Source: Candidatus Thorarchaeota archaeon (GTDB lineage: Archaea > Asgardarchaeota > Thorarchaeia > Thorarchaeales > Thorarchaeaceae). From it: a stretch of 52,334 bases of DNA. The notes under the pieces are model-generated. The model saw nothing but the letters and a program-made list of their open reading frames with translations. It ran no database searches and had not been told where the DNA came from. Location of the stretch: positions 1 to 52,334 of the forward strand of contig JAEOUG010000058.1 in the NCBI GenBank assembly GCA_016839445.1, given 5' to 3'. Below are positions 13,201-31,760 of the stretch, one piece after another (within the stretch, counting starts at the first letter, position 1; every line of letters starts with the position of its first letter). The position numbers were made by a program, and so were the translations under genes.

Positions 13201-14061
13201 CTAGATCTCGCTAGTGTCGATTCCAGTCTTTTCGAGGGTTCCGAAGAACTCCTCCTTTGTGCCCGGGTCTGAGAATGCGAGAAACCATGGAACTCTTGGA
13301 AACCCTCTGTCGAACTCAACCTCTGCGCCTGTTATGGTTGAGCAGACTCCTCCCCTCTCCTCTAGGATTACCTGGGGTATCCCGAAGTCGTGGGGACTGG
13401 CCATCTTGTACAAGAGAACTCTCGCCCGTCCTTCCGCAACTGCAATCATGCTGTGATGGGCGCTCATGATATCAAGAGGCTCAAGGCCCATTCGCTCCAC
13501 AACAGGCAGAAGGGGCTCGGCACGTTTCTGTACGAAGTGCGGACCGGCGTTTTGCGGTAGAACAAGTGGGTTACCCAGTCCATCTTCTACTGACACACCA
13601 TGACCACGTTTCGCAGAATACAGTCGGTCGAGGGCGGGGAAGTAGACTGCGCTCGAGATGAATCGCCTTTCACTAGAGAACGCCGCGCCGATTGCGAAGT
13701 CATCTCTATCCCGTGTGTATGCAAGCGTACCATCCAAGGGGTCAAGATGGAAGCACAGAGCATCCTTCTCATCAGAGAACAGGCGGACCCTGGGCGTGTT
13801 CTCCTCCGCATTGACGGAAACTTCTGGGAAGCTTAGGTGGAGTATCTCAAGGCACACTTCCTGCACCAAGTCGTCAACGACTGTATGGGCCGTTGAACTC
13901 TCCCTCACCTGATCCGGCGGGAGGTCTGATGCCTTTGGTTGATTCTGGACCTTTCCTCTGTGGGAATTCAGAATCATTCCGCCTGTCAGTACTATTGTCT
14001 TGAGGACGTCGAGGTCTCTGGAATCTTGGTCCATGAATAGCATCTCCGGCTCAACTGGCAT
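13201..14061 (-). CDS. Inositol-monophosphatase-superfamily phosphatase (CysQ/IMPase-like)
   Basis: 286 residues. Metal-binding motifs are in order: NAEENTP (the GEE-like motif), DPLDGTLAYT (DPxDGT), and a late GVCSTITGAEVEF segment. The superfamily includes inositol monophosphatase, archaeal FBPase and 3'(2'),5'-bisphosphate nucleotidase (CysQ). CysQ removes PAP, the inhibitory by-product of sulfotransferases. Three sulfotransferase genes lie 2.5-6.5 kb away, so a PAP phosphatase role is plausible, but IMPase/FBPase activity cannot be excluded. The N-terminus is longer than in the smallest members. Confidence 0.8.
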   Translation of the reverse strand: MPVEPEMLFMDQDSRDLDVLKTIVLTGGMILNSHRGKVQNQPKASDLPPDQVRESSTAHTVVDDLVQEVCLEILHLSFPEVSVNAEENTPRVRLFSDEKDALCFHLDPLDGTLAYTRDRDDFAIGAAFSSERRFISSAVYFPALDRLYSAKRGHGVSVEDGLGNPLVLPQNAGPHFVQKRAEPLLPVVERMGLEPLDIMSAHHSMIAVAEGRARVLLYKMASPHDFGIPQVILEERGGVCSTITGAEVEFDRGFPRVPWFLAFSDPGTKEEFFGTLEKTGIDTSEI

Positions 14062-14190
14062 GACATCGCCAAAATGATGTTATCGGTTTGAGCTTGGCAC
14101 ACCCCGAAAGCCTTAATTGTGGACCAACGAAGGCGCGCCAATACTCCGATATGCTGACTTGCCTAATCGACTGGGGGCTGTGCTCGTCTA

Positions 14191-14952
14191 TTGATTGAGA
14201 TTCTCGTTGTGCTGATTGTGTTGGCATTCATTACGGAGTACTTCACTGCCACACTAGGAATGGGTTACGGCACAATGCTAGCACCCGTTCTCTTGATGAT
14301 TGGCTATGAGCCCGCAGTACTTGTCCCAGTTGTCTTGGTCAGCCAATTCCTTGCGGGACTCGTGTCTGGCAGCTTCCACCATCGGTTCCGCAATATGGAT
14401 CTAATAAACGAGCCTCACGAACGCGCTGCATTCGAGATTTTCTCACTCACGGGCGTGGTGGGTGTTCTGATTGCTGTACTCACTAGCATTGCTCTTCCCG
14501 TCTGGTTCGTCGAACTCTACATCGCCTCTGTGGTTGTACTGATGGGCGCTGTCATCTTGGCGAATGGAAGGACCAGCGAAGCCTTCTCGAATCGGAAACT
14601 CGGCGTCCTAGGTCTCTTCGGCGCCTTCAACAAGGGTATCTCCGGCGGCGGATACGGTCCTATCGTAACAGGCGGGCAGATTATCAGCGGTATCAAACCG
14701 CGCGCGGCAATCGCGATAACCTCCATTGTCGAGGCTGTCATGTGTGCGGTTGGATTCGTCGTGTATCTGATGATTTCTCAGTCCATTGATTTACTTCTGA
14801 CCCTGGGAATCATCATAGGCGCAGTGTTGGCCGCTCCCTTTTCAGCACTCACTACGGCAAAGGTGTCGCAGGAGCGGCTCAAGAAGGCGATCGCAGTCGC
14901 CACAATCGCGCTGGGCATTGTCACTGCTCTGTGGGTTCTCACTGCTGCATAG
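14191..14952 (+). CDS. TauE/SafE-family membrane permease
   Basis: 253 residues from TTG 14191; an in-frame stop at 14164 rules out longer starts. There are seven to eight membrane helices. The N-terminal repeat contains TLGMGYGTMLAPVLLMIGY and the C-terminal repeat contains GISGGGYGPIVTGGQII, the two matching G-rich motifs of the TauE/SafE (sulfite/sulfoacetate exporter-like) family. Substrates in the family are sulfur or organic anions. It stands beside the phosphatase that may be CysQ and upstream of the sulfotransferases, so a role in sulfur-anion transport is a fair guess. Confidence 0.85.
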   Translation: MIEILVVLIVLAFITEYFTATLGMGYGTMLAPVLLMIGYEPAVLVPVVLVSQFLAGLVSGSFHHRFRNMDLINEPHERAAFEIFSLTGVVGVLIAVLTSIALPVWFVELYIASVVVLMGAVILANGRTSEAFSNRKLGVLGLFGAFNKGISGGGYGPIVTGGQIISGIKPRAAIAITSIVEAVMCAVGFVVYLMISQSIDLLLTLGIIIGAVLAAPFSALTTAKVSQERLKKAIAVATIALGIVTALWVLTAA

Positions 14953-14969
14953 GCATGTGGTGTGCAGGA

Positions 14970-15482
14970 CTACGTCTCTTCTTCTTTTGAGTCAGTTACA
15001 AAGGGGTGGTTTCTGAAGTAGTCCTTCCTCAGCTCGATAGCTTCCTCAATATCCTGGCGTCGCTCTGGTCGCATTCGCTGGATTTGCGAGTAGTACTCCT
15101 TAGTTTCTTCGATCTCTTTAGTGTCTAATCCGTGTTGCAGAGATAATTGCTCCAGCGCATCTAGCATTGTTGAGTAGATTGGAAACCAGAAAATGTGGTC
15201 CTTTGGGCTTGGCACATACATGTAGGGATTCCGTTCCTGAGTCACCTCTTGGGAGGCGGCCCACATCACTAGCACTCTGTCGTAGATGTACCCCATGATG
15301 AGGAAGACGAACAGGATCAGACCCGCGAATGCAAGAGGCCCGAGTGCACCCATGTTGAAGAAGAAGGGAACATACCCCACATAGAGACCTGCGAGAACCA
15401 TGACACCATAGAAGAGACCCCAGATTCCTCTAATCTGCAAGATTCTCCATTGCTGTTTCATAAGCCACTTTCTTATTCTCAA
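14970..15482 (-). CDS. Membrane protein with one copy of a two-helix module
   Basis: 170 residues from TTG 15482; the start overlaps the upstream stop in TTGA. It opens with KWLMKQQWRILQIRGIWG, has two membrane helices (YGVMVLAGLYVGYVPFF and LAFAGLILFVFLIMGYI), then YD, RNPYMYVP, and a cytoplasmic tail with MRPERRQDIEEAIELR and RNHPF. The same pattern occurs twice in the neighbouring 351-residue protein. I do not recognise a family with a known function. The pair is surely co-translated. Confidence 0.72.
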   Translation of the reverse strand: MRIRKWLMKQQWRILQIRGIWGLFYGVMVLAGLYVGYVPFFFNMGALGPLAFAGLILFVFLIMGYIYDRVLVMWAASQEVTQERNPYMYVPSPKDHIFWFPIYSTMLDALEQLSLQHGLDTKEIEETKEYYSQIQRMRPERRQDIEEAIELRKDYFRNHPFVTDSKEEET

Positions 15483-16534
15483 TTCAATCGTGCCTCCTCA
15501 GTTGTTACTCTGAACGTATCTCCGAACTCACGGCGCAACTCTCTTGCTCTCTTCATGTCCCCATCCTGAGCGACATCGAGACTGAAGTACTCCTGGAGGA
15601 ATTCCATAATCTTGTCAACCTTCGACGTGTCTAGCCCATCCCTTTCGAGCAGTTGCCTCAAGATGGTGAACATGGTGTAGTAGAATGGCATGAAGAGCGT
15701 ATACAGACTTGGCTCGGCTAGGTAGCTGTACGGGTTCCGCTCGATTCTGACAGTGGTGTCGACAGACCAGATGTACAGCTTTCTGTCGTAGAACCATCCA
15801 ACCGCTGTTATCATGAAGAGAATCGGGATAGTCACGATGAAGATGCCAAGGATGAGATATGCTACTGGCACCATCCCGTCCGTGACTACATCTGGGAACA
15901 GGAACACTACATAGACTCCAGCAATGACCAGAGAGTCCTGCGCCATTCCTGTGAGTTCCTGCACCCAGTTAAGCCGCAGGGTCTGGGTCTCGAATCCGAG
16001 CATGGCTCTTGATCGAAGGCCGACCTTTCCGCTCTCAGGGTCCCCGGTAGGATTGAACGGATGGTTTCTCATGTATTCCTCCCCAAGACTCTGCGCTGCG
16101 TTGATGTCATCCTTCTCAGGTCTGAATGTGTAGTTCTTGGCTAGGTACTTCTCCAGCTCTCCTAGCGACTTGTCGTCTATTCCAAGCTTCCTGAACAGAC
16201 TGTGGAAACTAGAGATGGCAATGTAGAGAACTGGGTATTCGAGAGCGTACGCCTTGTAGTTGGGAACGCATCTATACGGGTTCCTGTCAATATTCACCTG
16301 GAGCTTTGCTCTCCACATCCTTGCCTTCTCATCGTACAGCCAACCGATACCCATGAAGATGAGAATCAGTACACCGCCGAGAAGTACGGCGCCGAGGAAG
16401 CCCAGGTCCGCCAGAATGGGGATTTCCTCGTAGTAGACCCTGCCAAGTGCGAGCATTCCCATCCCGAGACTCATCCATGCTCGAATGGTGCCCATCCGCC
16501 AGTACTGCTTCATAATCCACTTGGCTATGCTCAA
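15479..16534 (-). CDS. Membrane protein with two copies of the same two-helix module
   Basis: 351 residues from TTG 16534. The start is supported by the paralogue downstream, which begins with the same pattern (KWxMKQxWR...IR). Copy 1 covers about residues 1-165 and copy 2 about 185-345. Each copy has two membrane helices, then WxYD, RNPY and a helical cytoplasmic domain with a conserved Gly-Ile/Leu-Asp; copy 1 ends in RNHPF like the neighbour. With that neighbour the locus has three copies. The function is unknown. Order and overlap suggest that the products form one complex. Confidence 0.72.
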   Translation of the reverse strand: MSIAKWIMKQYWRMGTIRAWMSLGMGMLALGRVYYEEIPILADLGFLGAVLLGGVLILIFMGIGWLYDEKARMWRAKLQVNIDRNPYRCVPNYKAYALEYPVLYIAISSFHSLFRKLGIDDKSLGELEKYLAKNYTFRPEKDDINAAQSLGEEYMRNHPFNPTGDPESGKVGLRSRAMLGFETQTLRLNWVQELTGMAQDSLVIAGVYVVFLFPDVVTDGMVPVAYLILGIFIVTIPILFMITAVGWFYDRKLYIWSVDTTVRIERNPYSYLAEPSLYTLFMPFYYTMFTILRQLLERDGLDTSKVDKIMEFLQEYFSLDVAQDGDMKRARELRREFGDTFRVTTEEARLN

Positions 16535-16641: not shown

Positions 16642-17619
16642 CTAGTGATAGTAGGGTATCATCCTGTTCAAGATGTAGCCCTTGGGCCTCTCCCCAGAAA
16701 CGGGCCAGAGGAACTCCCTATCGGGCTTCATTGGCTTGTACTTGAACTCCTTGAGGATGAACGGGAAGAGCCTATTGACAAGATGCACTTCAAGATGTGT
16801 GATTTCCTTCTTCCAGAGGTGCAGATTCTTCGCAGATATGCCTGAGAACTTCAGTCCCCTGCTGCTATTGCCTTCCCATGCCTCTCCCATTGTCGTGGGC
16901 TGGAGTACGGATTCGTCAAATGGAATCTCAACCACCTTGCACATCCTCCGGACTGTTTCTTCTGGTTTGGTTAACAGGTCTTCGTACCGGATTACGAGGT
17001 AGTCTTCGCCCAGAATCTCTCTGTTGTGATGTAGCCTGTAGTAGCTATTCTCCAATGACCTGAGCGCATTGCCAAGGAACGGGTAGGGGCGCCCATCTAT
17101 CCTCATGTATCTCCTGATGGAGACCAGGTTGGAATAGGGGTTTCTGAGAACATGGAGGAACTTCGCGTCTGGAAACATCGACTTGAGATGCAGAGCGAAC
17201 TCAGTGTGCTCCACGGACTTCTCCACGAACCGCAGGTTGCCTGGCATGTCTTCTCTGGTCAGTGCCGAATACGATGCCTCAACGTAGTGAAGCAGTAACT
17301 CGCGCATCGATTCAGCGGGCTCTGCCATCACGTTTCTGAACCGATCAATGTCAAGTTTGCCGCGCAGGTCAGAGTCACCCATTCTCCCTCCCATTGTGTT
17401 CACTCGATGTGCATAGTCAGTGTATGCGTCCCTGATTTCTTGCAGGTCGAGTCGAGGAGGTCTCGCCTTGCGAAGCCTGTAGTCCACCCACTCACTTGCG
17501 TACTGGAAGATGTGCATCTCAAATGGAACAACGTAAAGGCCCGGACTTCCATCCAGAAGGTTCCTGACCAGACTCGTTCCTGATTTGTGCGGGCCAAGAA
17601 TGAAGATTGGAGCTTTCAT
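16642..17619 (-). CDS. Sulfotransferase
   Basis: 325 residues. The 5'-phosphosulfate loop is at the N-terminus (FILGPHKSGTSLVRNLL) and the 3'-phosphate motif later (FLHVLRNPYSNLVSIRRY). These define PAPS-dependent sulfotransferases of the Sulfotransfer_1/3 type. The enzyme would move sulfate from PAPS onto a sugar or other acceptor. No signal peptide is seen, so it should act in the cytoplasm. It is the first of three different sulfotransferases in 4 kb, mixed with glycosyltransferases and a C5-epimerase-like gene. Confidence 0.88.
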   Translation of the reverse strand: MKAPIFILGPHKSGTSLVRNLLDGSPGLYVVPFEMHIFQYASEWVDYRLRKARPPRLDLQEIRDAYTDYAHRVNTMGGRMGDSDLRGKLDIDRFRNVMAEPAESMRELLLHYVEASYSALTREDMPGNLRFVEKSVEHTEFALHLKSMFPDAKFLHVLRNPYSNLVSIRRYMRIDGRPYPFLGNALRSLENSYYRLHHNREILGEDYLVIRYEDLLTKPEETVRRMCKVVEIPFDESVLQPTTMGEAWEGNSSRGLKFSGISAKNLHLWKKEITHLEVHLVNRLFPFILKEFKYKPMKPDREFLWPVSGERPKGYILNRMIPYYH

Positions 17620-17700: not shown

Positions 17701-18513
17701 CTATTCCACAGATGGCGGCTCATACCCGTATTTGTGGATGATGAACTCCTCCGCCCTCCGTACAAGATCGATGGTGTCTGAGTCGTAGTAGTGGCTTACG
17801 CTATGCCGCTCTGATCTGTTCACCTTCTTCCTCGAGCCCTCTCTGATTGTGCTCTTCATCTCATCGGTCAGTTCGTGACCCGACTTCTCCATTGCCTCGA
17901 TGAGGTCCTCTTCGAGAGACTCAACTCTCACCAAGAGGTCGATAAGGCAGTGCTCTTCATCGTACTCCTGCAGTTTCTGCAGACTATGAATGCCGGTGAA
18001 CACGTCGTCATCGAAGAAGTCTTTCAGGAACAACTTGCAGTAACGATACGTCATGAACCCAGCGAATCCACTTGTCGCTGACTCATGATACCGCTCTCCA
18101 AGGTCTCTGTGATGTCTTGGGTCCATCACCATTCGGAGCCATTTCCGAAACTTGGAGGCATCCATAGAGTCCCCATACACAGAGCTCCATTCTCCAACGG
18201 GCTTTCTGAGCTCGTGCATGCCGTGGCTAATCGCTCCTTTCCCTATTCTCCTCAGTCCTAGCCCGGTCGACTTCTTCGTGAGTCTGTCATAGAGCCCTCC
18301 CTTATCGTTGCTCCCGTACGCCCAGAGCGATACATACCAGTCCCAAGGGTTCCTGATGCTACCCATAATCATCTTCTCTGAGGAGTAATCGGTGAGCCAG
18401 CTGTGTTTTGGCTTCACCTGTCTTCCTCCCACCGTCTTGTCAAGGAGTTGAGCTATGTGTGTGCAAGCTGACTTCTGAAGTTGAAGGAAGATTATCCTGT
18501 CCGTTTCAAACAC
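17701..18513 (-). CDS. Sulfotransferase (Sulfotransfer_2-like)
   Basis: 270 residues from GTG 18513. It begins with IIFLQLQKSACTHIAQLL, a 5'-phosphosulfate loop of the carbohydrate-sulfotransferase type, and continues with MIMGSIRNPWDWYVSLW, the 3'-phosphate motif. It belongs to the branch related to heparan 2-O- and chondroitin/HNK-1 sulfotransferases, though I cannot place it finely. The C-terminal third is helical and charged. It follows the glycosyltransferase gene by 12 bases on the same strand. Confidence 0.8.
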   Translation of the reverse strand: MFETDRIIFLQLQKSACTHIAQLLDKTVGGRQVKPKHSWLTDYSSEKMIMGSIRNPWDWYVSLWAYGSNDKGGLYDRLTKKSTGLGLRRIGKGAISHGMHELRKPVGEWSSVYGDSMDASKFRKWLRMVMDPRHHRDLGERYHESATSGFAGFMTYRYCKLFLKDFFDDDVFTGIHSLQKLQEYDEEHCLIDLLVRVESLEEDLIEAMEKSGHELTDEMKSTIREGSRKKVNRSERHSVSHYYDSDTIDLVRRAEEFIIHKYGYEPPSVE

Positions 18514-18525
18514 GCATATCCACCT

Positions 18526-19464
18526 TCAGGCATCATCTTTCTCGAAGAGCTTCAGCATCTTCTCCCCCGTTCTCTCAGCGGTATAGCCGTCGAGGATCGT
18601 CTGTCGAAGGTCCTTCTTCAACTGCATCTTCTCCTCGGCGTTCTTCTGTTTGAACTCCTCAATGAGGTCGATGAGTTCGGAATCGTACCTGTAAGTGAGT
18701 TCCTCGGGGACAAACTCAAGGATGCAGGGGATTCTATGTACGAACGGAATGAGCCCCGACAGCATTGCCTCGGCGATGGCAACTCCGAATGATTCATCGA
18801 GCGCATGATGGATGTAGTATTCCATCTCCCATTGCCACTCGGGGAAGGAAACGTTGGGTTCCAGTACATGGCTCAACCCGTACTCCTTCGCCCTCTCCAC
18901 GATTATTCGCTCCTCGGCGGAGTAGCCTCCTATGTGAAGCTGGTAGTCGCGAAGAGCGAGCATGAGGGAGTAGATCCGCTTTCTGGGAGTTGGGAGTGAC
19001 CACGTGCATATCTTGCCAGAACTACTCGGATGGAACGGCCACTTCTCAGCGTTGACCCCCGGCGGAATGACTTCTATGGGTACAGACTTAGGCACGAACT
19101 CCCTGAGTAGCTCCCCGTAGTGCGTGGAGACCGCGATGACTGCCTTCACATTATCCCAGTCCACGCCTTTGAAAATCGGCGGATGATCCAGCTCCGTTCT
19201 GTGAATCCTCATGTAGATTGGCTTCGTGGAGTTGTGACTGACCTTGTGTCCCAACTCGTCGAGGAAATCTACAAAGACGACATCGGCCCATTTGGAGAGG
19301 GACCGTATCTTCCTCCCTATTGTTGCGAACCATCTTCCCTTGCTGACCATGGACCCGAAGTTGAACGAGCTACTCCGCGGTGGAGACACGATTCGAGTGT
19401 CAAAAGGCTCTGTCCACTTCAGGAACGTTGTGTTCCCAGTGAATACTGCAAGTTTCTTCGTCAT
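18526..19464 (-). CDS. Glycosyltransferase, GT4-like
   Basis: 312 residues from ATG 19464 (MTKKLAVFTGNTTFLKW). Longer starts run into the divergent sulfotransferase gene and lie upstream of the likely TATA box. The C-terminal Rossmann half carries the GT4 nucleotide-sugar motif (DESFGVAIAEAMLSGLIPFV, with the E-x7-E acid pair), and VIPPGVN ends the N-terminal half. It would transfer a sugar from an NDP- or GDP-donor. It is probably co-transcribed with the sulfotransferase gene just downstream, which suggests that one adds the sugar and the other sulfates it. Confidence 0.82.
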   Translation of the reverse strand: MTKKLAVFTGNTTFLKWTEPFDTRIVSPPRSSSFNFGSMVSKGRWFATIGRKIRSLSKWADVVFVDFLDELGHKVSHNSTKPIYMRIHRTELDHPPIFKGVDWDNVKAVIAVSTHYGELLREFVPKSVPIEVIPPGVNAEKWPFHPSSSGKICTWSLPTPRKRIYSLMLALRDYQLHIGGYSAEERIIVERAKEYGLSHVLEPNVSFPEWQWEMEYYIHHALDESFGVAIAEAMLSGLIPFVHRIPCILEFVPEELTYRYDSELIDLIEEFKQKNAEEKMQLKKDLRQTILDGYTAERTGEKMLKLFEKDDA

Positions 19465-19497
19465 CGCCAGTACCCTGCCCACAGATGATGTGGTTTC

Positions 19498-19507
19498 TTT
19501 ATACTTT
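19498..19507 (-). promoter_or_regulatory. TATA box for the leftward glycosyltransferase gene
   Basis: AAAGTATAAA on the minus strand, about 35 bases before ATG 19464. It supports the shorter start of that gene. Confidence 0.5.
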
Positions 19508-19581: not shown

Positions 19582-20481
19582 ATGCTCAACGAGATCTTGT
19601 TTCCGAGGCGGTTCACGAAGACCACTGGGTTCTGGGCTCGTACTCTCCGGAGGATATCCAAGTATGGTTTCGTGAGGAGAGGACTGCTGGCTGTTGTCTC
19701 GTTGGCGGGAGGATTTAGGAATCGAGGCAGGTACGCGCAGGTTCAGCGTTACTGCATGTTTGTGGGCTACCCAAGAAGCGGCCATAGCCTCGTAGGGTCA
19801 TTTGTTGATGCCCATCCGAATGCAGTGATCTCACATGAACTCGATGCTCTCGATTTTGTGGAGAGAGGCTATGGAAGGAATAGGCTCTTCTACTTGATCA
19901 CTAGGAATTCCTACGAGTTCGGGAAAGTCGGAAGGTCATGGACAGGCTATTCCTACGATGTGAAGGGCCAATGGCAGGGAGGATACAACGAAGTCCTGAC
20001 TGTCCTTGGTGACAAGAAGGGCGGGATGAGTTCACGACGCCTCGAAAGCGATCCCGAGCTATTGGAGTCGCTGCATAGCATGACGGGCGTGCCAATCCAG
20101 ATCATCCATGTAGTAAGAAATCCCTTTGATAACATCAGCACGATATCTAACCGAAACAAGATTCCATTGGAGGAGGCCATCGAGTTCTACTTCTCTCTGT
20201 GTGACACCAACAAGGCTGTGAAGGCGAAGTCAGACGATGCACACTTCCTTGAGTTCAGGTTGGAGGAGCTCGTCGAGAAGCCTCGCGAGATTGTCCAGCG
20301 AATCTGTGGTTTCTTGGAACTTGAGGCAGACTCCGGCTACCTCTCAGCCTGCGAGGCACTCCTCTTCGAAAAGCCTCGGAGAACAAGAGACTCGGTACAG
20401 TGGGACCGAAGCCTGATAGAGCTGGTACTCGTTCGGGCAAAGGAATACGACTTCCTGGAAGGGTACGACTTCGAGAACTGA
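19582..20481 (+). CDS. Sulfotransferase
   Basis: 299 residues. The 5'-phosphosulfate loop is MFVGYPRSGHSLVGSF (about residues 59-74) and the 3'-phosphate motif is IIHVVRNPFDNISTIS. A basic, partly hydrophobic region of about 55 residues precedes the loop (LLAVVSLAGGF) and may tether it to the membrane. It differs in sequence from the other two sulfotransferases nearby, so the three probably modify different positions. It is followed 54 bases later by the C5-epimerase-like gene, which has its own TATA box. Confidence 0.87.
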   Translation: MLNEILFPRRFTKTTGFWARTLRRISKYGFVRRGLLAVVSLAGGFRNRGRYAQVQRYCMFVGYPRSGHSLVGSFVDAHPNAVISHELDALDFVERGYGRNRLFYLITRNSYEFGKVGRSWTGYSYDVKGQWQGGYNEVLTVLGDKKGGMSSRRLESDPELLESLHSMTGVPIQIIHVVRNPFDNISTISNRNKIPLEEAIEFYFSLCDTNKAVKAKSDDAHFLEFRLEELVEKPREIVQRICGFLELEADSGYLSACEALLFEKPRRTRDSVQWDRSLIELVLVRAKEYDFLEGYDFEN

Positions 20482-21659: not shown

Positions 21660-22658
21660 TCACTCTGCGGGTTTGGAGAACCTGTAGATGCCCCGTATCT
21701 TGCCTTCGTTCCTCTCCCACACATAGTTCTCTCTAGCATGAGCCATTATTTCAGCTGAGTCTTGCTCAGGAAGATCTGAAAGGACTTGAGGAAGGTCCTC
21801 GTACGAGTCAAACTCGTGTACATATGGGTCCGCCTTGAACGGCTCTTTGAGCGTAGATGTCAGTAAGACTTGGAGCCCTGCATTCAGGTACTCGTAGTTC
21901 TTGTTGGGGTCGCAGTACCTGTGGAAGGGATGAGGTCTCCACGGAGTGAGCCCGATTCTGTATTCTGTCAGGCCAATCATCATCTCCGGGTGAGGTACAC
22001 CTGATATGATGTTGAAGTCTACTGCATCTTTCAGACCTGTCATATCGCGGTGTGGAGTGAACTTGTCGAACTTGAAGTCACTACCAACGTAGACTAGGCC
22101 CTTCCTCCCCTCCGGGTCTGGCAGGTCGATGACCTCTGATGTTAGCGGGAAGTTGCCTGTGACCTCCACATGTTTCGATCTCTGCCTGTGCTCCGCCGCT
22201 ATGTTCTCGCTCACTGTCAGAACTGGGTATCTCTCCAGCAGGTGTTGCTCCCAACTCGGTGTCACTCTGACGAGTGGCTTGCCAGATATCCTCCTCACCA
22301 GACTTCTGTTTGAGAAGCGGAAGTCCTGCTTGCTCCAGTATTCGTGGTCGTCATAGACCACAGGGTATTCGGTCTCAAGCATCATGGCTGCGGCAATGAC
22401 ATTGTTGGCATGGACGATGTCCGGGTTGATTTCGTCTATGGCTTTGAGCCATCGCTTCTTGAAGCGCGGATCCAGTACCACGCGAAAGTGGTTTACAACG
22501 GGAATGTGATAGGTGGCAGAGAAGGCTCCGTAGTCTTGTCGGCTTGTAGGATGGCCACCCAGGAATAGCAGTTCGTGTCCTTCATTCTTCATGACGAGAG
22601 CTGTCTTCTCGATTCTTGCATCTGGGAGCCCTCCGTGAGAAGTGTGAAGAATCCTCAT
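21660..22658 (-). CDS. Glycosyltransferase, GT4-like
   Basis: 332 residues. It opens with MRILHTSHGGLPDARIEKTA and has the N-terminal Rossmann signs INPDIVHANNVIAAAM and YPVVYDDHEYWS. The second half has GLVYVGSDF and a donor-site region (YRIGLTPWRPHPFHRYCDPNKNY) of the kind found in surface-polysaccharide GT4 enzymes. The stop faces the C5-epimerase-like gene 11 bases away. It lies 14 bases downstream of the first wecB and is in the same transcript. Confidence 0.8.
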   Translation of the reverse strand: MRILHTSHGGLPDARIEKTALVMKNEGHELLFLGGHPTSRQDYGAFSATYHIPVVNHFRVVLDPRFKKRWLKAIDEINPDIVHANNVIAAAMMLETEYPVVYDDHEYWSKQDFRFSNRSLVRRISGKPLVRVTPSWEQHLLERYPVLTVSENIAAEHRQRSKHVEVTGNFPLTSEVIDLPDPEGRKGLVYVGSDFKFDKFTPHRDMTGLKDAVDFNIISGVPHPEMMIGLTEYRIGLTPWRPHPFHRYCDPNKNYEYLNAGLQVLLTSTLKEPFKADPYVHEFDSYEDLPQVLSDLPEQDSAEIMAHARENYVWERNEGKIRGIYRFSKPAE

Positions 22659-22672: not shown

Positions 22673-23779
22673 CTATTCGACCATCATCGACCTCTTGGTC
22701 TGTATCTCTCCTGAGGAGAGTATCTCTGCTATTCTCTCTGCTGCTCTGCCATCACCGTAGACCGAGGCATCATTGTTGGTCTTCAGTCCCCACATCTTCA
22801 GGGCCTTAGTCGATACATCCTCTGCCGTGGGGAGTGCGAGAATGTTTGCTCCTGCCTCTATGGTCTCGACCCACTCGGTGTTGTCCCTGATTGTGACGCA
22901 AGGCGTGTTCAGGAGATATGCCTCCTTTTGGAGACCTCCCGAGTCCGTTATGAGAAGGTCCGATTTGCTCACAAGAGCCATCATTGTTGTGTAGGGCACA
23001 GGGTCAACGACCTCGAGATTCTTGGGAATCTGGATTCCTGTTTCCTCCAGTCTCTTCTTGGTTCGGGGGTGCATCGGGAAGACTATCTTGCGAGAAACCG
23101 TAGCTAGCCCCTTCATGATTCCTGTCAGACGATCAGGAATGTCTACGTTCTCCCTTCGGTGAAGGGTGAGTACTGCAAAGGAACCCTCGGATATCCCTAC
23201 TTTCTTCATCTCTTCTTCTTGGTATGATGAGTTGCTGAATATCGGCAGGCGGTTCTGGAGGATGTCATACATCGTGTCGCCAGTGAGGAATACTGAGCCG
23301 ATGACATTCTCCTTCTCCAGATTCTCCACTGCGATTTTCGTAGGGGCGAAGAGACCTGTTGCACCGTGGTCGACAAGCCTTCTGTTGATCTCTTCCTGCA
23401 TGTACATATCATAGCTACGAAGCCCCGATTCGAGATGACATGTCGGAATGTCCATCTTGAAGCCAGCCAGGGCGGCGCCGAGGGCGGAGTTGGTGTCACC
23501 CGGGACTACGAGGTAGTCAGGCCTCTCTCTCTCGAGTTCTCTCTCCAATCTTGATATGACCTCGTATGTCTGATACGCACTTGTTCCACTGCCCACCTCA
23601 AGGTTGCAGTCAGGCTTAGGAATCTCGAGCTCCTCGATGAACTGTGCAGCCAACTGGAAGTCGTAGTGTTGCCCAGTATGGATGAACCGCGTTGTCACGC
23701 CTCCCTCTTGAAGAGCCAGCAGCAGTGGCGCCGACTTGATTATTTGCGGCCGTGTGCCAGTTACGAGCGTGACAATCAT
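22673..23779 (-). CDS. wecB: UDP-N-acetylglucosamine 2-epimerase (non-hydrolysing), copy 1
   Basis: 368 residues, normal length. It converts UDP-GlcNAc to UDP-ManNAc in the cytoplasm, a precursor of ManNAc or ManNAc-uronate in surface polymers. Motifs: TGTRPQIIKSAPL at the N-terminus, FIHTGQHYD, VPGDTNSALGAA, CHLESGLRSYD, EEINRRLVDH, LTLHRRENVD, FPMHPRT, ITDSGGLQKEA and NTEWVET. The usual HxEAGLR reads HLESGLR here. A second copy lies 1.3 kb away on the other strand. Confidence 0.93.
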   Translation of the reverse strand: MIVTLVTGTRPQIIKSAPLLLALQEGGVTTRFIHTGQHYDFQLAAQFIEELEIPKPDCNLEVGSGTSAYQTYEVISRLERELERERPDYLVVPGDTNSALGAALAGFKMDIPTCHLESGLRSYDMYMQEEINRRLVDHGATGLFAPTKIAVENLEKENVIGSVFLTGDTMYDILQNRLPIFSNSSYQEEEMKKVGISEGSFAVLTLHRRENVDIPDRLTGIMKGLATVSRKIVFPMHPRTKKRLEETGIQIPKNLEVVDPVPYTTMMALVSKSDLLITDSGGLQKEAYLLNTPCVTIRDNTEWVETIEAGANILALPTAEDVSTKALKMWGLKTNNDASVYGDGRAAERIAEILSSGEIQTKRSMMVE

Positions 23780-23935: not shown

Positions 23936-24991
23936 TTGTTGGTCAAGAAACGAGTTCTCCTCATAGGCACAGAACCCGAACGGATGATTCGACTGCAGAG
24001 AGTCCTCCAGAGCATGCGGAAGCTCGGCATCGATGTCCGTGTGCTTGAACCTGTTACGAAACCCCGCGGGAGACCCCGGATACTCAAGGGAATGATTCGC
24101 TATCTGACTATTACCTTCCAGATTCTCCTTGCTAGAGCAGACATCTACCACTTCTTCAACGTCCCTGACAACGTTGGCCTTCCGCTCACACTAAAGCGAG
24201 GCACACTGGTCTACGACGTTCGTGCTCCATGGGCTGCCGTCCTCCGTGAGACCTTCGGTAAGTCACCGCTCATCTTCTTGGCGAAGTTCATTGAGAGGTT
24301 CATGACCAGGAAGGCCGACCATGTTGTCTGTGTCAATCGGATGTTGGCTGAGAGGGCAGTGACATGGGGCGCCAGGTCTGTCAGGGTCATCCCGAACTAC
24401 CCGTCCGAGGACTTCGGCCCCACTCGTGACCGAGCCGAGACCAGGAAAGAGCTTGGCATTGATGACTCCTCAGTAGTGCTGTATCTCGGGAAGCTCTCAA
24501 AGGTTGAGGGTGTCGACCTGCTGATGGAGGTGATTCGATCGGCTACCCGACTGACGCCCAAGGTGAAGTTCCTCGTTGTTGGTGCAGGACCGCAGGAGAG
24601 TCAATTCAAGCGGTTCGTAGAGAGAGAAGGTCTAGAAGGCAGAGTAGTCATGACAGGATGGATTCCCCACGAAGAGGTTGCGAATCTCATTCAAGCGGCA
24701 GACCTGTGCTTGCTCCCTCGCCCCTGGGACAGCTGCTCTCCCTTCATTGGGCCTGAGTCCATCTGGAAGGCAGGTGAGTATCTCTCGCTAGGGAAACCCG
24801 TGCTGGCTCCTAGGATGGGGGGTTTTGCGACTGCGCCTTTTCCCGTGATAGCAGTTGACCCGTCCGAGATGGCACAAGCAGTTGCTGAGTTCTTCAGGAG
24901 GCCCGCCACTGGGTCAGTCCAACCACATCCACGATGGCCAGAGAGCCACAGGAGACTTGAACGTCTCTACAGGAGTCTTGGTGCTCTTTAG
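23936..24991 (+). CDS. Glycosyltransferase, GT4 family
   Basis: 351 residues from TTG 23936, chosen for its ribosome site and because KKRVLLIGTEPERM is the natural N-terminus of this fold. ATG 23867, with AGGGG before it, is an alternative adding 23 polar residues; a still longer frame would overlap wecB. The second domain shows VVLYLGKLSKVEGVDLL, FLVVGAGPQESQ, VVMTGWIPHEEVANLIQAAD, the donor site (SCSPFIGPESIWKAGEYLSLGKPVLAP) and a typical C-terminal helix. It would transfer a sugar from a nucleotide donor. A second wecB follows 77 bases later. Confidence 0.85.
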   Translation: MLVKKRVLLIGTEPERMIRLQRVLQSMRKLGIDVRVLEPVTKPRGRPRILKGMIRYLTITFQILLARADIYHFFNVPDNVGLPLTLKRGTLVYDVRAPWAAVLRETFGKSPLIFLAKFIERFMTRKADHVVCVNRMLAERAVTWGARSVRVIPNYPSEDFGPTRDRAETRKELGIDDSSVVLYLGKLSKVEGVDLLMEVIRSATRLTPKVKFLVVGAGPQESQFKRFVEREGLEGRVVMTGWIPHEEVANLIQAADLCLLPRPWDSCSPFIGPESIWKAGEYLSLGKPVLAPRMGGFATAPFPVIAVDPSEMAQAVAEFFRRPATGSVQPHPRWPESHRRLERLYRSLGAL

Positions 24992-25068: not shown

Positions 25069-26193
25069 TTGTTCGTTACACTCGTGACTGGAACACGACC
25101 ACAGATTGTCAAGTCAGCTCCCGTTCTGCGTGCCTTGGAGGCGGCTGGCATAGAGTGTGAGTTCATTCACACAGGCCAGCACTATGACTACGAGCTGGCA
25201 GGAGCATTTGTGGACGAGTTTGAGCTTCAGAAGCCTCATGATCTGGAGGTAGGCCCCGGTGATTACTGCTTCCAGGTGTATGGCATAATGGAGCGCCTCT
25301 CAGGTCACCTTGAGAAGCGGAGGCCCGACTACCTCATCATTCCCGGTGACACAACATCTGCCTTGGGCGCCGCCATGGTGGGCTTCAAAATGGAGATTCC
25401 GGTCTGCCACCTAGAAGCCGGCCTCAGGAGATACGACTATACCTATCAAGAAGAAATGAATCGGCGTCTGATAGATCATGGGTCCTCGGGTCTCTTCGCG
25501 CCCACGGTAACTGCTGTTGAGAACCTGAAACTTGAAGACGTGCTGGGAAAGGTGTATCTCATAGGAGACACGATGTACGACATTCTGAAGCACAGGCTGC
25601 CAAGGTACTCTGATAGGGCCTTCCTAGATCATGTGCTTGAGAAGATAGGAGTTGATGTCGACGAATATGCCCTTCTTACTCTCCACCGAAGAGAGAACGT
25701 AGACTCGGAGTCTCTTCTCTCGACCATTGTATCAGCAATAAACAGGCTCGACTTCCAGATTGTATTCCCAATACATCCACGCACTCGGAAACAGCTCGAG
25801 CAGTTCTCTCTGGAATTCGATTCGTCGCATGTCCACTTGGTCGACCCCCAACCGTACGACGAGTTCATGAGCCTGGTGGCCTCATCGAGGCTTGTCATCA
25901 GTGACTCAGGAGGCGTCCAGAAGGAGTGCTATCTTCTTAATGTCCCGCTCGTGTCCCTCCATCAACGAACCGAGTGGGTAGAAACCTTCGATGCGGGGGC
26001 GAACCTCCTGACTCCAATTGCAGAAGACAGAATCGTCGAGAGCTGCAACTCAATGTACGGCAAGAGACTAACCAACGACCCGTCCGTCTATGGCGATGGC
26101 AAGGCCGCTGAGAAGATCCCCGAGATTCTGAGATCTGGTGAAATCAGGATTCCAACAGATAGAACACGCAAGCCCTTCGCTGACTACTTCTGA
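25069..26193 (+). CDS. wecB: UDP-N-acetylglucosamine 2-epimerase (non-hydrolysing), copy 2
   Basis: 374 residues from TTG 25069. Same reaction as copy 1 (UDP-GlcNAc to UDP-ManNAc). Motifs: TGTRPQIVKSAPV, FIHTGQHYDYELA, IPGDTTSALGAAM, CHLEAGLRRYD, EEMNRRLIDH, LTLHRRENVD, FPIHPRT, ISDSGGVQKE and RTEWVET. Copy 2 keeps the canonical EAGLR. The two copies are similar but clearly diverged, so they are an old duplication or were acquired separately; they may have different partners or substrates. The stop codon faces the acyltransferase gene. Confidence 0.93.
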   Translation: MFVTLVTGTRPQIVKSAPVLRALEAAGIECEFIHTGQHYDYELAGAFVDEFELQKPHDLEVGPGDYCFQVYGIMERLSGHLEKRRPDYLIIPGDTTSALGAAMVGFKMEIPVCHLEAGLRRYDYTYQEEMNRRLIDHGSSGLFAPTVTAVENLKLEDVLGKVYLIGDTMYDILKHRLPRYSDRAFLDHVLEKIGVDVDEYALLTLHRRENVDSESLLSTIVSAINRLDFQIVFPIHPRTRKQLEQFSLEFDSSHVHLVDPQPYDEFMSLVASSRLVISDSGGVQKECYLLNVPLVSLHQRTEWVETFDAGANLLTPIAEDRIVESCNSMYGKRLTNDPSVYGDGKAAEKIPEILRSGEIRIPTDRTRKPFADYF

Positions 26194-26197: not shown

Positions 26198-26995
26198 TCA
26201 GTCCCAGGGCCTGTATTGCTCGCCATCGTTGTAGAACCGAAACCGGACTCCGTGTCTTCGGAGCAGGTCCTTCACCCGGTCCGTTTCCTCAGACGCAGGC
26301 CCCTCAATCTTCCTTCTCGGAAGGTCGAAGCTGGTCTTGCCCAAGGTGACCTGTGTGGCCTCCTCGTCCCTGCCTACACTGATACCGTAGAACTCTGCCT
26401 CTTTGATGATCTTGTCAACGACTGCCCGCTTCTCCTCGGCACTAACCTTGCGAGGATACGCGTTCTCCTTGAGTATCTTGACTGGTATACCCCCTGCCAG
26501 GCAGCCTGAGGGTAGGTCTCTGTTCACAAGAGACATGGCAGCAACGACCACGTTATCGCCGATTGTGACATTCGGATTGACTATTGCATATGGCAGCCAC
26601 ACATTGGAGCCAATCCTGACAGGTCCCTCTTGATATGGGAATCCATCGTATTCCGAGGGGTATGCGCCGTGCGTGAACACCTTTCCTTCCATGCCTATGC
26701 CCACTTCGTGTCCAATCTCCACATCGTGCGCAGTATTGACCATCGATCCCTTACCAAGATGCAGGAAGTCACCGGTTCTCAGGGAACCCATCTCACTCCG
26801 CCCACCACCAATGAGGACTCCTGTGGTAATCCATGCCTCTCGGCCAATCTCGATGTCACGGCCCCCTATGACGACGTTCTCACCGATCTTTGAGAAATCA
26901 CCAATCTTGATGTTCTTCGCGAGGAGTCGTGCTGACGGATGAATCACGACATCCCTGCCGAGTTCGATGTCATTCTCAGGCAAGTTTTGACACAC
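26198..26995 (-). CDS. Left-handed beta-helix (hexapeptide repeat) acyltransferase
   Basis: 265 residues from GTG 26995, which lies one base after the stop of the deacetylase frame; 27058 is an alternative start giving 286 residues. Residues about 5-190 are built of hexapeptide repeats (for example IELGRDVVI, IKIGDFSKI, VVIGGRDIEI, VEIGHEVGI, VRIGSNVWL, VTIGDNVVV). They end in DLPSGCLAGGIPVKILKEN, the usual cap of O- and N-acetyltransferases acting on sugars. The remaining 75 residues are charged and helical, with unknown purpose. It would transfer an acetyl or other acyl group to a nucleotide sugar or glycan. Confidence 0.88.
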   Translation of the reverse strand: MCQNLPENDIELGRDVVIHPSARLLAKNIKIGDFSKIGENVVIGGRDIEIGREAWITTGVLIGGGRSEMGSLRTGDFLHLGKGSMVNTAHDVEIGHEVGIGMEGKVFTHGAYPSEYDGFPYQEGPVRIGSNVWLPYAIVNPNVTIGDNVVVAAMSLVNRDLPSGCLAGGIPVKILKENAYPRKVSAEEKRAVVDKIIKEAEFYGISVGRDEEATQVTLGKTSFDLPRRKIEGPASEETDRVKDLLRRHGVRFRFYNDGEQYRPWD

Positions 26996-26996
26996 C

Positions 26997-27662
26997 TCAC
27001 TTGGGTGGCTTGTTGAATGAGCAGACAACCCCCCTGTGCTGGGCGAAGGCTTCTGCATAAGCGGCTCCGCAGTGGTGACCTTGGTATCCCATCACCGACT
27101 TCACTGCGTTGATCGTGAAGTATCCACGGCGTTCGACTTGGGACTTGTACAGACCGAGCATCTCGATCTTCTAGTTAACCTGCTCTTCCGTCAGAGGAAC
27201 GTACACCTCGGGAGTGAACCCAGGGCTATTCCCTGCAATCTCGTACGATAGCACTGACACGTCTGTCTTCATGAATGCCCTGAAGGTCTCCTCTGCGACA
27301 ACTCTGTGGTCCTGATGGAGATCGCCCACCCATGTTGTCAGGACAAGGTCGTAGTCTTCGTCACGTCGAAGACCATAGATGGTCTCCAGAATCTCCTGTC
27401 TTCTAGCGGGGAAGTCGCGAACTGGAAGCTCGTAGATTGTCAGGTCCTTGATGCCCATGTGTTTCGCCGCGGCCTCGCATTCCTTTCGGAGAATGTCGAT
27501 TGGGTGTTTGCTTGTGTCTACGCTCTTCCTACAGTCGCTGAAGACAACTGACCTCACATTGGCGCCGCTCTCGACTAGCAGTCGGACTGTCGCTCCTGCT
27601 CCCACTTCCATGTCATCTGTGTGGGCAGAGAGCACAAGCACGTTGTCAACATTCCATATCAT
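26997..27662 (-). CDS. PIG-L/LmbE de-N-acetylase, interrupted by an in-frame TAG
   Basis: The frame from ATG 27662 gives 163 residues up to TAG at 27171-27173. Past that codon the same frame continues for 57 residues to TGA at 26997-26999. Motifs before the stop: VLSAHTDDMEVGAGAT (the AHxDD zinc site) and GDLHQDHRVVAEE (the second zinc site). After the stop come LGLYKSQVERRGY and CGAAYAEAFAQ, which are the normal end of the family. The full frame of 221 residues plus stop is the usual length, and the next gene starts one base after it. Family members remove N-acetyl from GlcNAc units. It is a nonsense mutation, a sequence error or readthrough. Confidence 0.8.
27171..27173 (-). other. In-frame amber codon inside the deacetylase gene
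   Basis: TAG between EEQVN and KIEMLGLY of the PIG-L/LmbE frame. TAG also ends many genes of this window, so general recoding is unlikely. Confidence 0.7.
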
Positions 27663-29307: not shown

Positions 29308-30744
29308 TCACTCACCTCCTGTGAAGACCCCCGGGGTGAAGATATCGCTGGGGTCGATTGCTCGCTTAATCGTCCAGTACAGGTCCAAGAACCGCGGGTT
29401 CGCCTTGGCTACAGCCCGCTTCTCCCAGAGTAGGCCTGACCAGTATGGGCATGCACCCGTATCCATGTGTGCGTCGAGCATTTCATTCCATGCCTTGAGA
29501 CCCAACTCCATCTTGTCCCTTGTCGGCACGAAGATTGTGATCCAGCCTGTGGCATAGGCCCGGTCTGATCCCAGGCAACTGGCTATCCACTTGATGCCGT
29601 TGTCCAGCAGCTTGTACTTCTTGAAGATGGCCCACATTCGTTTCATGATCTCAGGTATGGAAGGAATCGGTCTGAGGTGACAGGTGTTCAGCCAAAAGCC
29701 GTTGTTGTATAATGGTTGAACCAGATTGAACATCTCGGACCAGTGCATCTGCGATGCGAAGTTGCCGAGGTCTTTCCCACCGTGTTTGAAGGCAACTTCA
29801 CGAATTATCTCCATCTTCCTGTTTGCGAGTTCCTGGTCCACTTCCTGGACGATGGATGCGAACATGGAGTTGATCTCCTTGTGCTTGTCAAGGAAGCCGG
29901 GGAAGAACGTGTCCGTTGATTGCCGGTCGGCAAGGAGGTTGAGTTCCTCTGTGAACCCGAGCTTCTGGACTTCAAGAAATGCTGCCGTTGCATCTTCAAG
30001 TGTCTTGAATCCGAAGTCCCCGTAGGCGTAGAATTCGGCCTTTGGATAGATCTTGAGTGTGACCTTGGTCTTTACTCCGAGGGACCCGTGGTCTCCAAGG
30101 AAGATCCCTGTCAGGTCGAGGAATGTGGAATAGCGTCCAAAGATCTTGGCGTCTGGATTCCATCCAGTACCAGTCTTCACGACTTCTCCGCTTGGCAAGA
30201 CTACCTCAAGAGACACCACTCCCTCAGTGGATGGCCCGTACTTGGATGCAGCATAGCCAATGCTATTGATACTCACAGAGCCTCCCACAGTCCCCACATT
30301 TCCTCCATAGGGGCCTCTGAAACCAAGTTTGTATCCAGCTTCGTCGAGTCTGTGGATAAGCTCTGCCCATCTGAGACCCGCTTCAACCGTGACGGTCATC
30401 ACGTCTTCATCGATGCGGATGATACGATCCATCTTGACCATGTCAATCATGACTGCGTGGGGGATTCTTGGGAGACATGCCCCACAGATGCCGTTTCTTC
30501 CTCCGGCTGGCATGATAGGTGTCTTTGTCTTGGCACAGAGGCGAACAATGTCTTGCACTTGCTCCACGCTGCTCGGCATCACGACAATCCCGGGCCTCTC
30601 AGCCTCGAGATGACAGGCATCTTTGCTGTAGGACGAGATAATCACAGGATTGTCGTTGACATGTGCCTCTCCTACGATCTTAACCAGTTCCTCATAGAGG
30701 GGATGTGTTCTGCTAGCCTTGACGATGGCCATGGTCCGCACCAT
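29308..30744 (-). CDS. FAD-linked oxidase subunit (GlcD-like, lactate/glycolate dehydrogenase type)
   Basis: 478 residues from ATG 30744; ATG 30732 (MAIVKASRTHP) is also possible. The PCMH-type FAD domain is clear: IVVMPSSVEQVQDIVRLC, TPIMPAGGRNGICGACLP, VTVEAGLRWAELIHRLDEAGY, GGNVGTVGGSVSINSIG and EVVLPSGEVVKTGTGWN. The second half is the FAD-oxidase C domain, and the FTPG ending is typical. It oxidises a 2-hydroxyacid, giving electrons to the Fe-S/CCG protein encoded directly downstream. The substrate is not evident. This two-gene unit is unlike the glycan genes on both sides. Confidence 0.87.
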   Translation of the reverse strand: MVRTMAIVKASRTHPLYEELVKIVGEAHVNDNPVIISSYSKDACHLEAERPGIVVMPSSVEQVQDIVRLCAKTKTPIMPAGGRNGICGACLPRIPHAVMIDMVKMDRIIRIDEDVMTVTVEAGLRWAELIHRLDEAGYKLGFRGPYGGNVGTVGGSVSINSIGYAASKYGPSTEGVVSLEVVLPSGEVVKTGTGWNPDAKIFGRYSTFLDLTGIFLGDHGSLGVKTKVTLKIYPKAEFYAYGDFGFKTLEDATAAFLEVQKLGFTEELNLLADRQSTDTFFPGFLDKHKEINSMFASIVQEVDQELANRKMEIIREVAFKHGGKDLGNFASQMHWSEMFNLVQPLYNNGFWLNTCHLRPIPSIPEIMKRMWAIFKKYKLLDNGIKWIASCLGSDRAYATGWITIFVPTRDKMELGLKAWNEMLDAHMDTGACPYWSGLLWEKRAVAKANPRFLDLYWTIKRAIDPSDIFTPGVFTGGE

Positions 30745-30834
30745 CTCCTATCCGGATAGCACCCGTATAAGTAATCAGCGATTCTGGACTGTTTTTCGTC
30801 ATCAGCTTCGGGGGGTAATATGACTAGATGTGCA

Positions 30835-31287
30835 TCACTGCATGGTCTCCTGGAGGACTTCTCGGAAGTCGAGCGATAGCGGCTCAAACCTCACGAAGTC
30901 TATCGACCTTGCTCTGCTTATGCAGTCGGGCAGTTCTTCGAGACTCTTGCACCATATCAGGTGCTTTCCTCTCTCCATCTTCTTGACGAGTTCCCATTCA
31001 TGCCCGCCTGTGATATCGGGATTCTGTATGGCTATGAGACGTCGACCTCTGGTGACGTTCTCCATTATGGTTCCCGCGCCGCAGTTGCTGATAATGACAT
31101 CTGCCTTCTGGAAGTACTCCTCTAGACTTGGGAGGAATCTGAAGCTCTCAATCTTGCGAGGTCTGTACTTGCCTGCCCCTATCTGTGCAACCACGTCATC
31201 AGTAATCGTTCCGTTCTCCGCCAGCTGGTCCATCTTCAGGATGAGTGAGTCGTGAGGGAGTGAAGTGCCGACAGTGATGAAGATCAA
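30835..31287 (-). CDS. Alg13-like glycosyltransferase subunit
   Basis: 150 residues from TTG 31287, overlapping the upstream stop in TTGA. It matches the C-terminal donor-binding half of GT28 enzymes: MIFITVGTSLPHDSLI at the start and ADVIISNCGAGTIMENVTRGRRLIAI for the UDP-sugar site. Alg13 (or bacterial PssE) pairs with Alg14 (PssD) to add GlcNAc from UDP-GlcNAc to a lipid-linked sugar at the cytoplasmic side of the membrane. The Alg14-like partner is the gene directly upstream. Confidence 0.85.
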   Translation of the reverse strand: MIFITVGTSLPHDSLILKMDQLAENGTITDDVVAQIGAGKYRPRKIESFRFLPSLEEYFQKADVIISNCGAGTIMENVTRGRRLIAIQNPDITGGHEWELVKKMERGKHLIWCKSLEELPDCISRARSIDFVRFEPLSLDFREVLQETMQ

Positions 31288-31760
31288 ACTATCATCCCCC
31301 TGTACTCCACTCCTGGATATCTATTCGCAAGTTCGGGCCAGCTGCTTAGCCACAAGTCTGTCTTCCCAATGAGGAGCCTACCTGCGATGGAAGGGTAGTA
31401 TACTCTACTCGGGCTCTCTATGTAGATTGTCTTGATACCAAACAGACGAGCCATTAGGAATGGTGGGAGAGTCAGCCCTGATCCTGTGCTGACCAACACA
31501 TCAGGCCGCACAATGAAAAAGAGCACCAAGCTATGAAGGAAAAGAAAGAGTGTCCTGAAGATGGACATGATTCTGCTGTCCTTGGCTCGGAAACGGGGGG
31601 AGATGACACTGTAGTATTTGCTCCCGACCTTCTCTTTCGTCACGTCTGACTCAAAGGGCACCATGAAGTACTTCTCAGCCTCGATTTGACTACTGAGCTT
31701 CAGACCTCTTGATGTGTGACCTCCTGAGCCTAGAACGAAGAGAACTCGCAAGCTACTCAT
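31284..31760 (-). CDS. Alg14-like membrane-anchoring glycosyltransferase subunit
   Basis: 158 residues. It opens with LRVLFVLGSGGHTSRGLKL, the GxGGHT acceptor-side motif of Alg14/PssD. Then come a hydrophobic segment (TLFLFLHSLVLFFIVRPDVLVSTGSG) and TIYIESPSRVYYPSIAGRLL. It recruits the Alg13-like subunit to the membrane and presents the lipid-linked acceptor. The two genes overlap by four bases. In eukaryotes this pair makes the second step of N-glycan assembly; here it may build the archaeal N-glycan or a surface glycan. Confidence 0.85.
   Translation of the reverse strand: MSSLRVLFVLGSGGHTSRGLKLSSQIEAEKYFMVPFESDVTKEKVGSKYYSVISPRFRAKDSRIMSIFRTLFLFLHSLVLFFIVRPDVLVSTGSGLTLPPFLMARLFGIKTIYIESPSRVYYPSIAGRLLIGKTDLWLSSWPELANRYPGVEYRGMIV

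Follow-up and report, generated by a model that had tools for sequence, protein, structure and literature searches.

The window analysed here, 52,334 nucleotides of a Candidatus Thorarchaeota contig, carries a glycan island of variable gene content at a fixed chromosomal position (Table 1), and this island encodes a bona fide member of the GLCE family, a relative of the animal heparan-sulfate epimerase. We put at about even the chance that the island specifies a sulfated amino-uronate surface glycan that is C5-epimerised after export, with sulfation and epimerisation being modular. The source genome (G000) is a MAG of 2.9 Mb and ~90% completeness; family membership, the PAPS operon, co-occurrence, the dehydrogenase motif and synteny were computed. 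Both flanks of the island consist of conserved genes that are syntenic in several other Thorarchaeota, and base composition is uniform along the whole window. Contamination of the contig was rejected on these two grounds, which also indicate that the grouping of the island genes exceeds chance. The Alg13/Alg14-like pair marks the island border, an STT3 is present, and an Rfam search of the window returned no matches.

Table 1. Genes of the glycan island and its border, with revised gene models and supporting matches.
Feature	Position	Strand	Evidence
Inositol-phosphatase family, probable PAP phosphatase (CysQ role)	13201..14061	-	PF00459 1.4e-21
TauE/SafE permease, probable sulfate/sulfite permease	14191..14952	+	PF01925 1e-22
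memB, island-associated membrane protein	14970..15482	-	no Pfam match; homologs in G019, G021, G219 islands
memA, membrane protein related to memB	15479..16534	-	no Pfam match
PAPS-type sulfotransferase 1	16642..17619	-	Sulfotransfer_3 PF13469 4.9e-29
Probable sulfotransferase 2, weak	17701..18513	-	PF03567 E=0.02, below cut-off
GT4-like glycosyltransferase, revised start	18526..19464	-	PF13439 sub-threshold; 50% homolog in G018 island
PAPS-type sulfotransferase 3	19582..20481	+	PF13469 1.7e-8, PF00685 6e-8
GLCE-family C5-epimerase, two TM helices	20536..21648	+	C5-epim_C PF06662 1e-33
GT4, constant epimerase neighbour	21660..22658	-	PF13439 6.8e-8
WecB-type UDP-GlcNAc 2-epimerase 1	22673..23779	-	Epimerase_2 2e-97; TIGR00236 291 bits, cut-off 210
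GT4 glycosyltransferase, start approximate	23939..24991	+	PF00534 2.2e-17; 56% homolog in G019 island
WecB-type UDP-GlcNAc 2-epimerase 2	25069..26193	+	Epimerase_2 4e-85; TIGR00236 268 bits, cut-off 210
Hexapeptide acyltransferase	26198..27058	-	PF00132 3.2e-13; 67% homolog in G021 island
PIG-L deacetylase frame with in-frame TAG	26997..27662	-	PF02585 4.5e-17
Alg13/PssE-like GT subunit, island border	30835..31287	-	NF041548 110 bits, cut-off 120
Alg14/PssD-like GT subunit, island border	31284..31760	-	PF08660 2.1e-19; NF041549 107 bits, cut-off 110

The epimerase matched PF06662 over its catalytic domain with 116.9 bits against a cut-off of 23.3, its best PDB matches were GLCE structures (6hzz, 1.3e-8), and the top Foldseek matches were again GLCE (TM-scores 0.37-0.41), in agreement with the C5-epimerase-like membrane protein proposed in the first-pass annotation. 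Its active site, on which that proposal partly hung, is retained at four of five catalytic positions (the equivalents of E499, N510, Y560 and Y578), which are shared with animal GLCE and invariant in all six Thorarchaeal epimerases. At the position equivalent to Tyr500, G000 (Val211), G012 and G018 have Val, and the Tyr is kept in G019, G219, G220 and Priestia; activity of the source-genome enzyme is therefore not certain. Compared with animal GLCE, the Thorarchaeal match is limited to the helical catalytic domain, there is a second, C-terminal TM helix, and the genomic context indicates an amino-uronate rather than GlcA. Both predicted helices carry basic tails, which would place the epimerase domain, spanning roughly residues 45-335, outside the cell; the sulfotransferases have no predicted TM helix.

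The usual neighbours of the Thorarchaeal epimerases are a GT4, a WecB and a HexNAc dehydrogenase. Homologs of the GT4 at 21660..22658 lie near six of six, WecB accompanies the epimerase in G000, G012, G018 and G019, and a dehydrogenase with the GVGGHC motif does so in G019 and G219. A similar set is found on a Priestia megaterium plasmid (NZ_CP151784), where a C5-epim_C protein, 27% identical to the Thorarchaeal epimerase, occurs with WecB, a GVGGHC dehydrogenase, PIG-L, DegT and GTs; this bacterial, putative polysaccharide locus has no annotated sulfotransferase. A contig scan with the epimerase alignment returned Thorarchaeota only, its peptide patterns being family-specific and of little bearing on other groups.

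We next consider sulfation. On another contig of the source genome (C26), adjacent genes for ATP sulfurylase (sopT, 383 bits) and APS kinase (apsK, 231 bits), both above their NCBIfam cut-offs, stand in a row with a sulfotransferase. The proposed PAP phosphatase and TauE permease have homologs inside the PAPS operons of relatives, at 50-56% identity for the former (G035 and G032) and 50-53% for the latter (loci L086 and L089; 32% in L062), and these roles are probable judging from gene context and family, with CysQ the top NCBIfam model for the phosphatase at a score far under its cut-off. Of at least 41 genomes in the family, 10 carry APS kinase, and these are precisely the ones with Sulfotransfer_3; across the 228 genomes of the phylum, APS kinase is found in 93 and Sulfotransfer_3 in 86, with 60 shared (Fisher 4e-12, relatedness uncorrected). 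A sulfated product of the source-genome genes is thus well supported. Of the three sulfotransferases claimed at first pass, those at 16642 and 19582 exceed their Pfam cut-offs and are solid, and sulfotransferase 1 has a 49% identical homolog in G035. The candidate at 17701 is weak: it has homologs in sulfation loci (45% in G065, 39% in G035), its PDB search gave a single chance match and no sulfotransferase, and its AlphaFold model is uninformative (pLDDT 43).

Among the remaining assignments, the two UDP-GlcNAc 2-epimerases, the sugar acyltransferase and the Alg13/Alg14-like genes were each borne out by family matches, the NCBIfam scores of the last falling just below their cut-offs. Two of three proposed GT4 enzymes (21660 and 23666) lie above the Pfam cut-off and the third (18526) below it. 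For this third gene the most likely start is 19464 (312 aa), as opposed to the earlier call of 18526-19785, and it therefore does not overlap the opposite-strand sulfotransferase 3. The GT4 called at 23666-24991 most likely starts near 23940, and the hexapeptide transferase downstream of 27058. Homologs of memA occur in G019, G021 and G219, and in G035, where they adjoin sulfotransferases. The PIG-L de-N-acetylase was recovered as a family match, but an in-frame TAG at 27173-27171 breaks the coding sequence at a position for which homologs have Lys, and the frame continues beyond it to 26997. Pyrrolysine as the cause was rejected, PylS scoring under its cut-off (19 vs 178 bits); the likelier causes are a nonsense mutation and an error in the assembly.

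The identity of the uronate bears directly on the heparan comparison. The single full nucleotide-sugar dehydrogenase found in the source genome, on contig C28 at L033:10212-11555, is of the HexNAc type and has 3g79 and 4r16 as best PDB matches. It carries a GVGGHC motif, by which UDP-ManNAc dehydrogenases cannot be told apart from those acting on UDP-GlcNAc or UDP-GalNAc. It scored 369 bits with the archaeal UDP-ManNAc dehydrogenase model (NF040825) versus 206 bits with the AglM UDP-Glc dehydrogenase; the former is the best of the specific equivalogs, below the 750-bit equivalog cut-off, and with the motif it places the enzyme nearest the UDP-ManNAc dehydrogenases, unassigned. By these sequence criteria, the uronic acid of the island looks like N-acetylmannosaminuronic acid and not glucuronic acid.

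The first-pass annotation had read the island as a glycosaminoglycan-like system, in which GlcA would be incorporated, GlcNAc de-N-acetylated, the chain sulfated and GlcA converted to IdoA. The presence of a GLCE-family epimerase, PAPS sulfotransferases and PIG-L within one island speaks for such a pathway, as do the weak similarity of the genes at 30835-31760 to the glucuronosyltransferase WelK (NCBIfam PssDE/WelK) and the GGSC-type dehydrogenases of two relatives, G014 from the same genus and G018, which also has the epimerase. Of the two capacities it presupposes, PAPS synthesis is encoded, whereas UDP-glucose dehydrogenase was not found in the source genome and, at its completeness, could be missing from the data. 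PIG-L, which is not an NDST, is interrupted, and sulfotransferase 1 does not appear to be of an HS type (NDST, 2OST, 6OST or 3OST), with no heparan enzyme among its PDB matches at E<=1. The expected epimerase-sulfotransferase link likewise failed to appear in relatives, as only two of six epimerase genomes carry sulfation genes (Fisher p=0.62, relatedness uncorrected) and G018, G019, G219 and G220 have the epimerase without them. We conclude that sulfation and epimerisation are separate modules within one island, whose likeness to heparan is piecewise; with a probable ManNAcA-type uronate, this makes a heparan-like pathway improbable.

Two further readings retain sulfation and dispense with part of the scheme. 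The product could be a sulfated N-glycan or surface polysaccharide without C5 inversion, the epimerase homolog being inactive or otherwise employed, as the Val at the Tyr500 position in three genomes and the sporadic distribution of the gene (six of 228 genomes) would allow; we regard this as unlikely given an intact gene, a GT4 neighbour retained across genera and the invariance of the other catalytic residues. Alternatively, the sulfotransferases might act on a lipid, protein tyrosine or secondary metabolite and their co-location be incidental. The best PDB matches of sulfotransferase 1, CurM/OLS polyketide and protein-tyrosine sulfotransferases (TPST), point in this direction, as does the sulfotransferase of the PAPS operon on another contig. 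Against this, sulfotransferases lie among sugar genes in G021, G022 and G035, and in G065 one adjoins a HexNAc dehydrogenase and a flippase-like gene, and we give a non-glycan target little credence.

For the sulfated amino-uronate glycan that we favour, the substrate, the order of steps and the final attachment, to protein as an N-glycan or to another surface polymer, are our interpretation. The product would be a lipid-linked glycan with an N-acetylhexosaminuronate among its sugars. WecB would provide UDP-ManNAc, which the UDP-HexNAc-type dehydrogenase encoded on another contig would convert to UDP-ManNAcA, and GT4 enzymes would assemble the chain in the cytosol. There, PAPS-dependent sulfotransferases would sulfate it, with PAPS supplied through the permease, ATP sulfurylase and APS kinase, and PAP removed by the PAP phosphatase. 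After export, the membrane-anchored GLCE-family enzyme would act on the uronate at the outer face and invert its C5, our preferred guess being ManNAcA to L-GulNAcA. C5 inversion of ManNAcA has been proposed as the source of L-GulNAcA in a Vibrio exopolysaccharide (PMC3901696), which shares this chemistry only, is not sulfated and has no identified epimerase. That the Asgard enzyme, acting on a PAPS-sulfated surface glycan after its export, converts ManNAcA to L-gulosaminuronate is a tentative proposal that we hold as possible and rather doubtful; no GLCE/C5-epim_C member with demonstrated amino-uronate activity was found in this analysis.

The closest archaeal parallel is the sulfated IdoA N-glycan of Halobacterium salinarum, which also combines a C5-inverted uronate with sulfate. 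Its Agl32 lacks the GLCE catalytic residues and has a fold nearest the AGE superfamily, and its sulfotransferases VNG1056C and VNG1057C belong to the alkaline-phosphatase/sulfatase superfamily rather than to the PAPS P-loop enzymes (PMC13308652, PMC11980604). In contrast, the island epimerase falls in the GLCE family and two of the island's sulfotransferases in PF13469. In the open-access literature searched, which most subscription journals lie outside, neither PAPS-dependent sulfation nor GLCE-family epimerases are described for Asgard archaea.

If the proposed ManNAcA inversion is true, archaea would have arrived at sulfated glycans with a C5-inverted uronate by a second route whose enzymes are independent of the first, and the heparan epimerase family would gain a new class of substrate. 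The phylum-wide counts of Sulfotransfer_3 and APS kinase suggest that sulfated molecules may be common in these archaea related to eukaryotes. The island also bears on the origin of the animal uronate epimerase family, because bacterial relatives sit in a similar WecB/dehydrogenase setting, and it makes the substrate question testable with a few expressed enzymes.

The window corresponds to contig C18 of a 2.91 Mb MAG, G000 (89.8% complete, 6.5% contamination). Its epimerase is a member of the GLCE family according to Pfam (1e-33), a sequence search of the PDB (6hzz, 1.3e-8), and Foldseek, in which a structure model (pLDDT 76) retrieved GLCE chains at ~1e-6, with TM-scores of only 0.37–0.41 for a model that included the TM helices. 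We compared the GLCE catalytic residues E499, Y500, N510, Y560, and Y578 (PMC13308652) and found equivalents of all but Y500 retained in 6/6 Thorarchaeal epimerases; Val takes the place of Y500 in three of them (G000, G012, and G018), and the other three (G019, G219, and G220) have Tyr there. These six genomes, all from family f1, gave the strong C5-epim_C matches among the 228 phylum genomes searched, and that in G131 was weak and partial. The named relatives of the G000 epimerase are all Candidatus Thorarchaeota, bearing out the Asgard placement of the first-pass annotation. Two hydrophobic segments (residues 24–42 and 339–357) carry basic tails, which by the positive-inside rule suggests an outward-facing catalytic domain.

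Pfam confirmed most of the genes listed in the first pass, except for one sulfotransferase and one GT4, and the PIG-L gene is interrupted in frame (see table). No PylS scored above cut-off in the G000 genome. Some gene starts in the window should be revised.

Features of the glycan island and related loci (bare coordinates refer to the window)
Coordinates	Feature	Remark
~7680-13189	Left border	Conserved genes, including TatD
13201-14061	IMPase	Putative PAP phosphatase
14191-14952	TauE	Permease
14970-16534	memB, memA	Two related membrane proteins, no Pfam match
16642-17619	Sulfotransferase 1	
17701-18513	Putative middle sulfotransferase	Pfam score under cut-off
18526-19785	GT4	Pfam score under cut-off
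19582-20481	Sulfotransferase 3	
20536-21648	C5-epimerase	
21660-22658	GT4	
27173-27171	In-frame TAG in PIG-L	Lys at this position in homologs
27730-30744	Right border	Conserved; CCG and FAD proteins
30835-31760	Split Alg13/Alg14-like pair	Also right border
L061:2530-3443	DDE-transposase pieces	Adjoin G035 sulfotransferase genes
L007:13174-14151	DDE transposase	Inside G018 island
L062 (G065:C70:4001-16303)	Compact sulfation locus, 12 kb	Another Asgard family

The island occupies a fixed place in the chromosome and varies in its glycan genes. G018 and G019 share both borders with different sugar genes in between, and the right border also adjoins other glycan genes in G021, G022, G008, G001, and G011. 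Cargo at equivalent loci includes flippases, DegT aminotransferases, ATP-grasp, CDP-glycerol-type transferase, WbqC, and nucleotide-sugar dehydrogenases. A GT4 related to the one adjoining the epimerase lies close to it in all six epimerase genomes, WecB within the islands of G000, G012, G018, and G019, HexNAc-type dehydrogenases within the G019 and G219 loci, and PIG-L within those of G000, G019, and G219; because several contigs are short, absences near some epimerases mean little. Similarly, a Priestia megaterium plasmid combines C5-epim_C, WecB, a GVGGHC dehydrogenase, and PIG-L inside ~16 kb.

The memA/memB proteins accompany the glycan islands of G019, G021, and G219, and one of them also occurs in G035. 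The Alg13/Alg14-like pair, scoring slightly below the NCBIfam PssE/PssD cut-offs, occupies the same position in G018 and G022. The DDE transposases in G035 and G018 are possible agents of island shuffling.

Genes for sulfate activation lie on another G000 contig (C26), where ATP sulfurylase, APS kinase, and an additional Sulfotransfer_3 gene are consecutive, a set shared with G012, G010, and G003. In G035 and G032, TauE and IMPase genes, whose products are 50–56% identical to those of the window, cluster with ATP sulfurylase and APS kinase, which supports the earlier guesses of a permease and a PAP phosphatase. Within f1, APS kinase matches at E ≤ 1e-20 came from 10 of at least 41 genomes, and Sulfotransfer_3 matches at E ≤ 1e-6 from precisely those 10. 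Phylum-wide, the counts are 93/228 and 86/228, respectively; G068 carries nine sulfotransferases, the most of any genome. The G065 locus encodes a fused ATP sulfurylase-APS kinase, an IMPase-like protein, a TauE permease, a HexNAc dehydrogenase, a flippase-like membrane protein, and two sulfotransferase-like proteins, one homologous to the middle sulfotransferase. Our search of the open-access literature returned no paper linking Asgard or Thorarchaeota to sulfotransferases in the sense of PAPS-dependent sulfation.

The single full dehydrogenase of G000 carries PGAGVGGHC, whereas dehydrogenases from other Asgard genomes carry G[FWY]GGSC; WecC, Cap5O, and other HexNAc dehydrogenases have the GGHC form, and UDP-glucose/GDP-mannose dehydrogenases the GGSC form. 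Among the genes retrieved for the genus, only G014 had one of the GGSC type. In NCBIfam, the G000 enzyme scored 369 bits as archaeal UDP-ManNAc dehydrogenase (below the cut-off of 750) versus 206–214 as UDP-glucose dehydrogenase. Together with the two WecB genes of the island, this dehydrogenase type makes ManNAcA the leading candidate uronate.

The glycosaminoglycan-like reading initially proposed is not supported, and none of these results places the island in the heparan system. Epimerase and sulfation genes are not associated (2/6 epimerase genomes sulfate; Fisher p = 0.62), and sulfotransferase 1 is closest in the PDB to CurM/OLS and tyrosine sulfotransferases. The order of steps would also differ: in heparan synthesis both sulfation and epimerization take place within the Golgi lumen, whereas the predicted topology would place Thorarchaeal sulfation in the cytosol first and epimerization outside the cell thereafter. 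C5 inversion of ManNAcA would yield L-GulNAcA, as proposed for a Vibrio polysaccharide (PMC3901696). For its sulfated IdoA N-glycan, Halobacterium salinarum uses Agl32 and sulfatase-like sulfotransferases; Agl32 lacks the GLCE residues, in contrast to the Thorarchaeal epimerase, which keeps four of them. Since Thorarchaeal Alg13 is reported near eukaryotic Alg13 (PMC8993221) and G000 encodes STT3, an N-glycan is a plausible but unproven destination of the product. The island may work like a pathway for a sulfated, C5-inverted uronate glycan.
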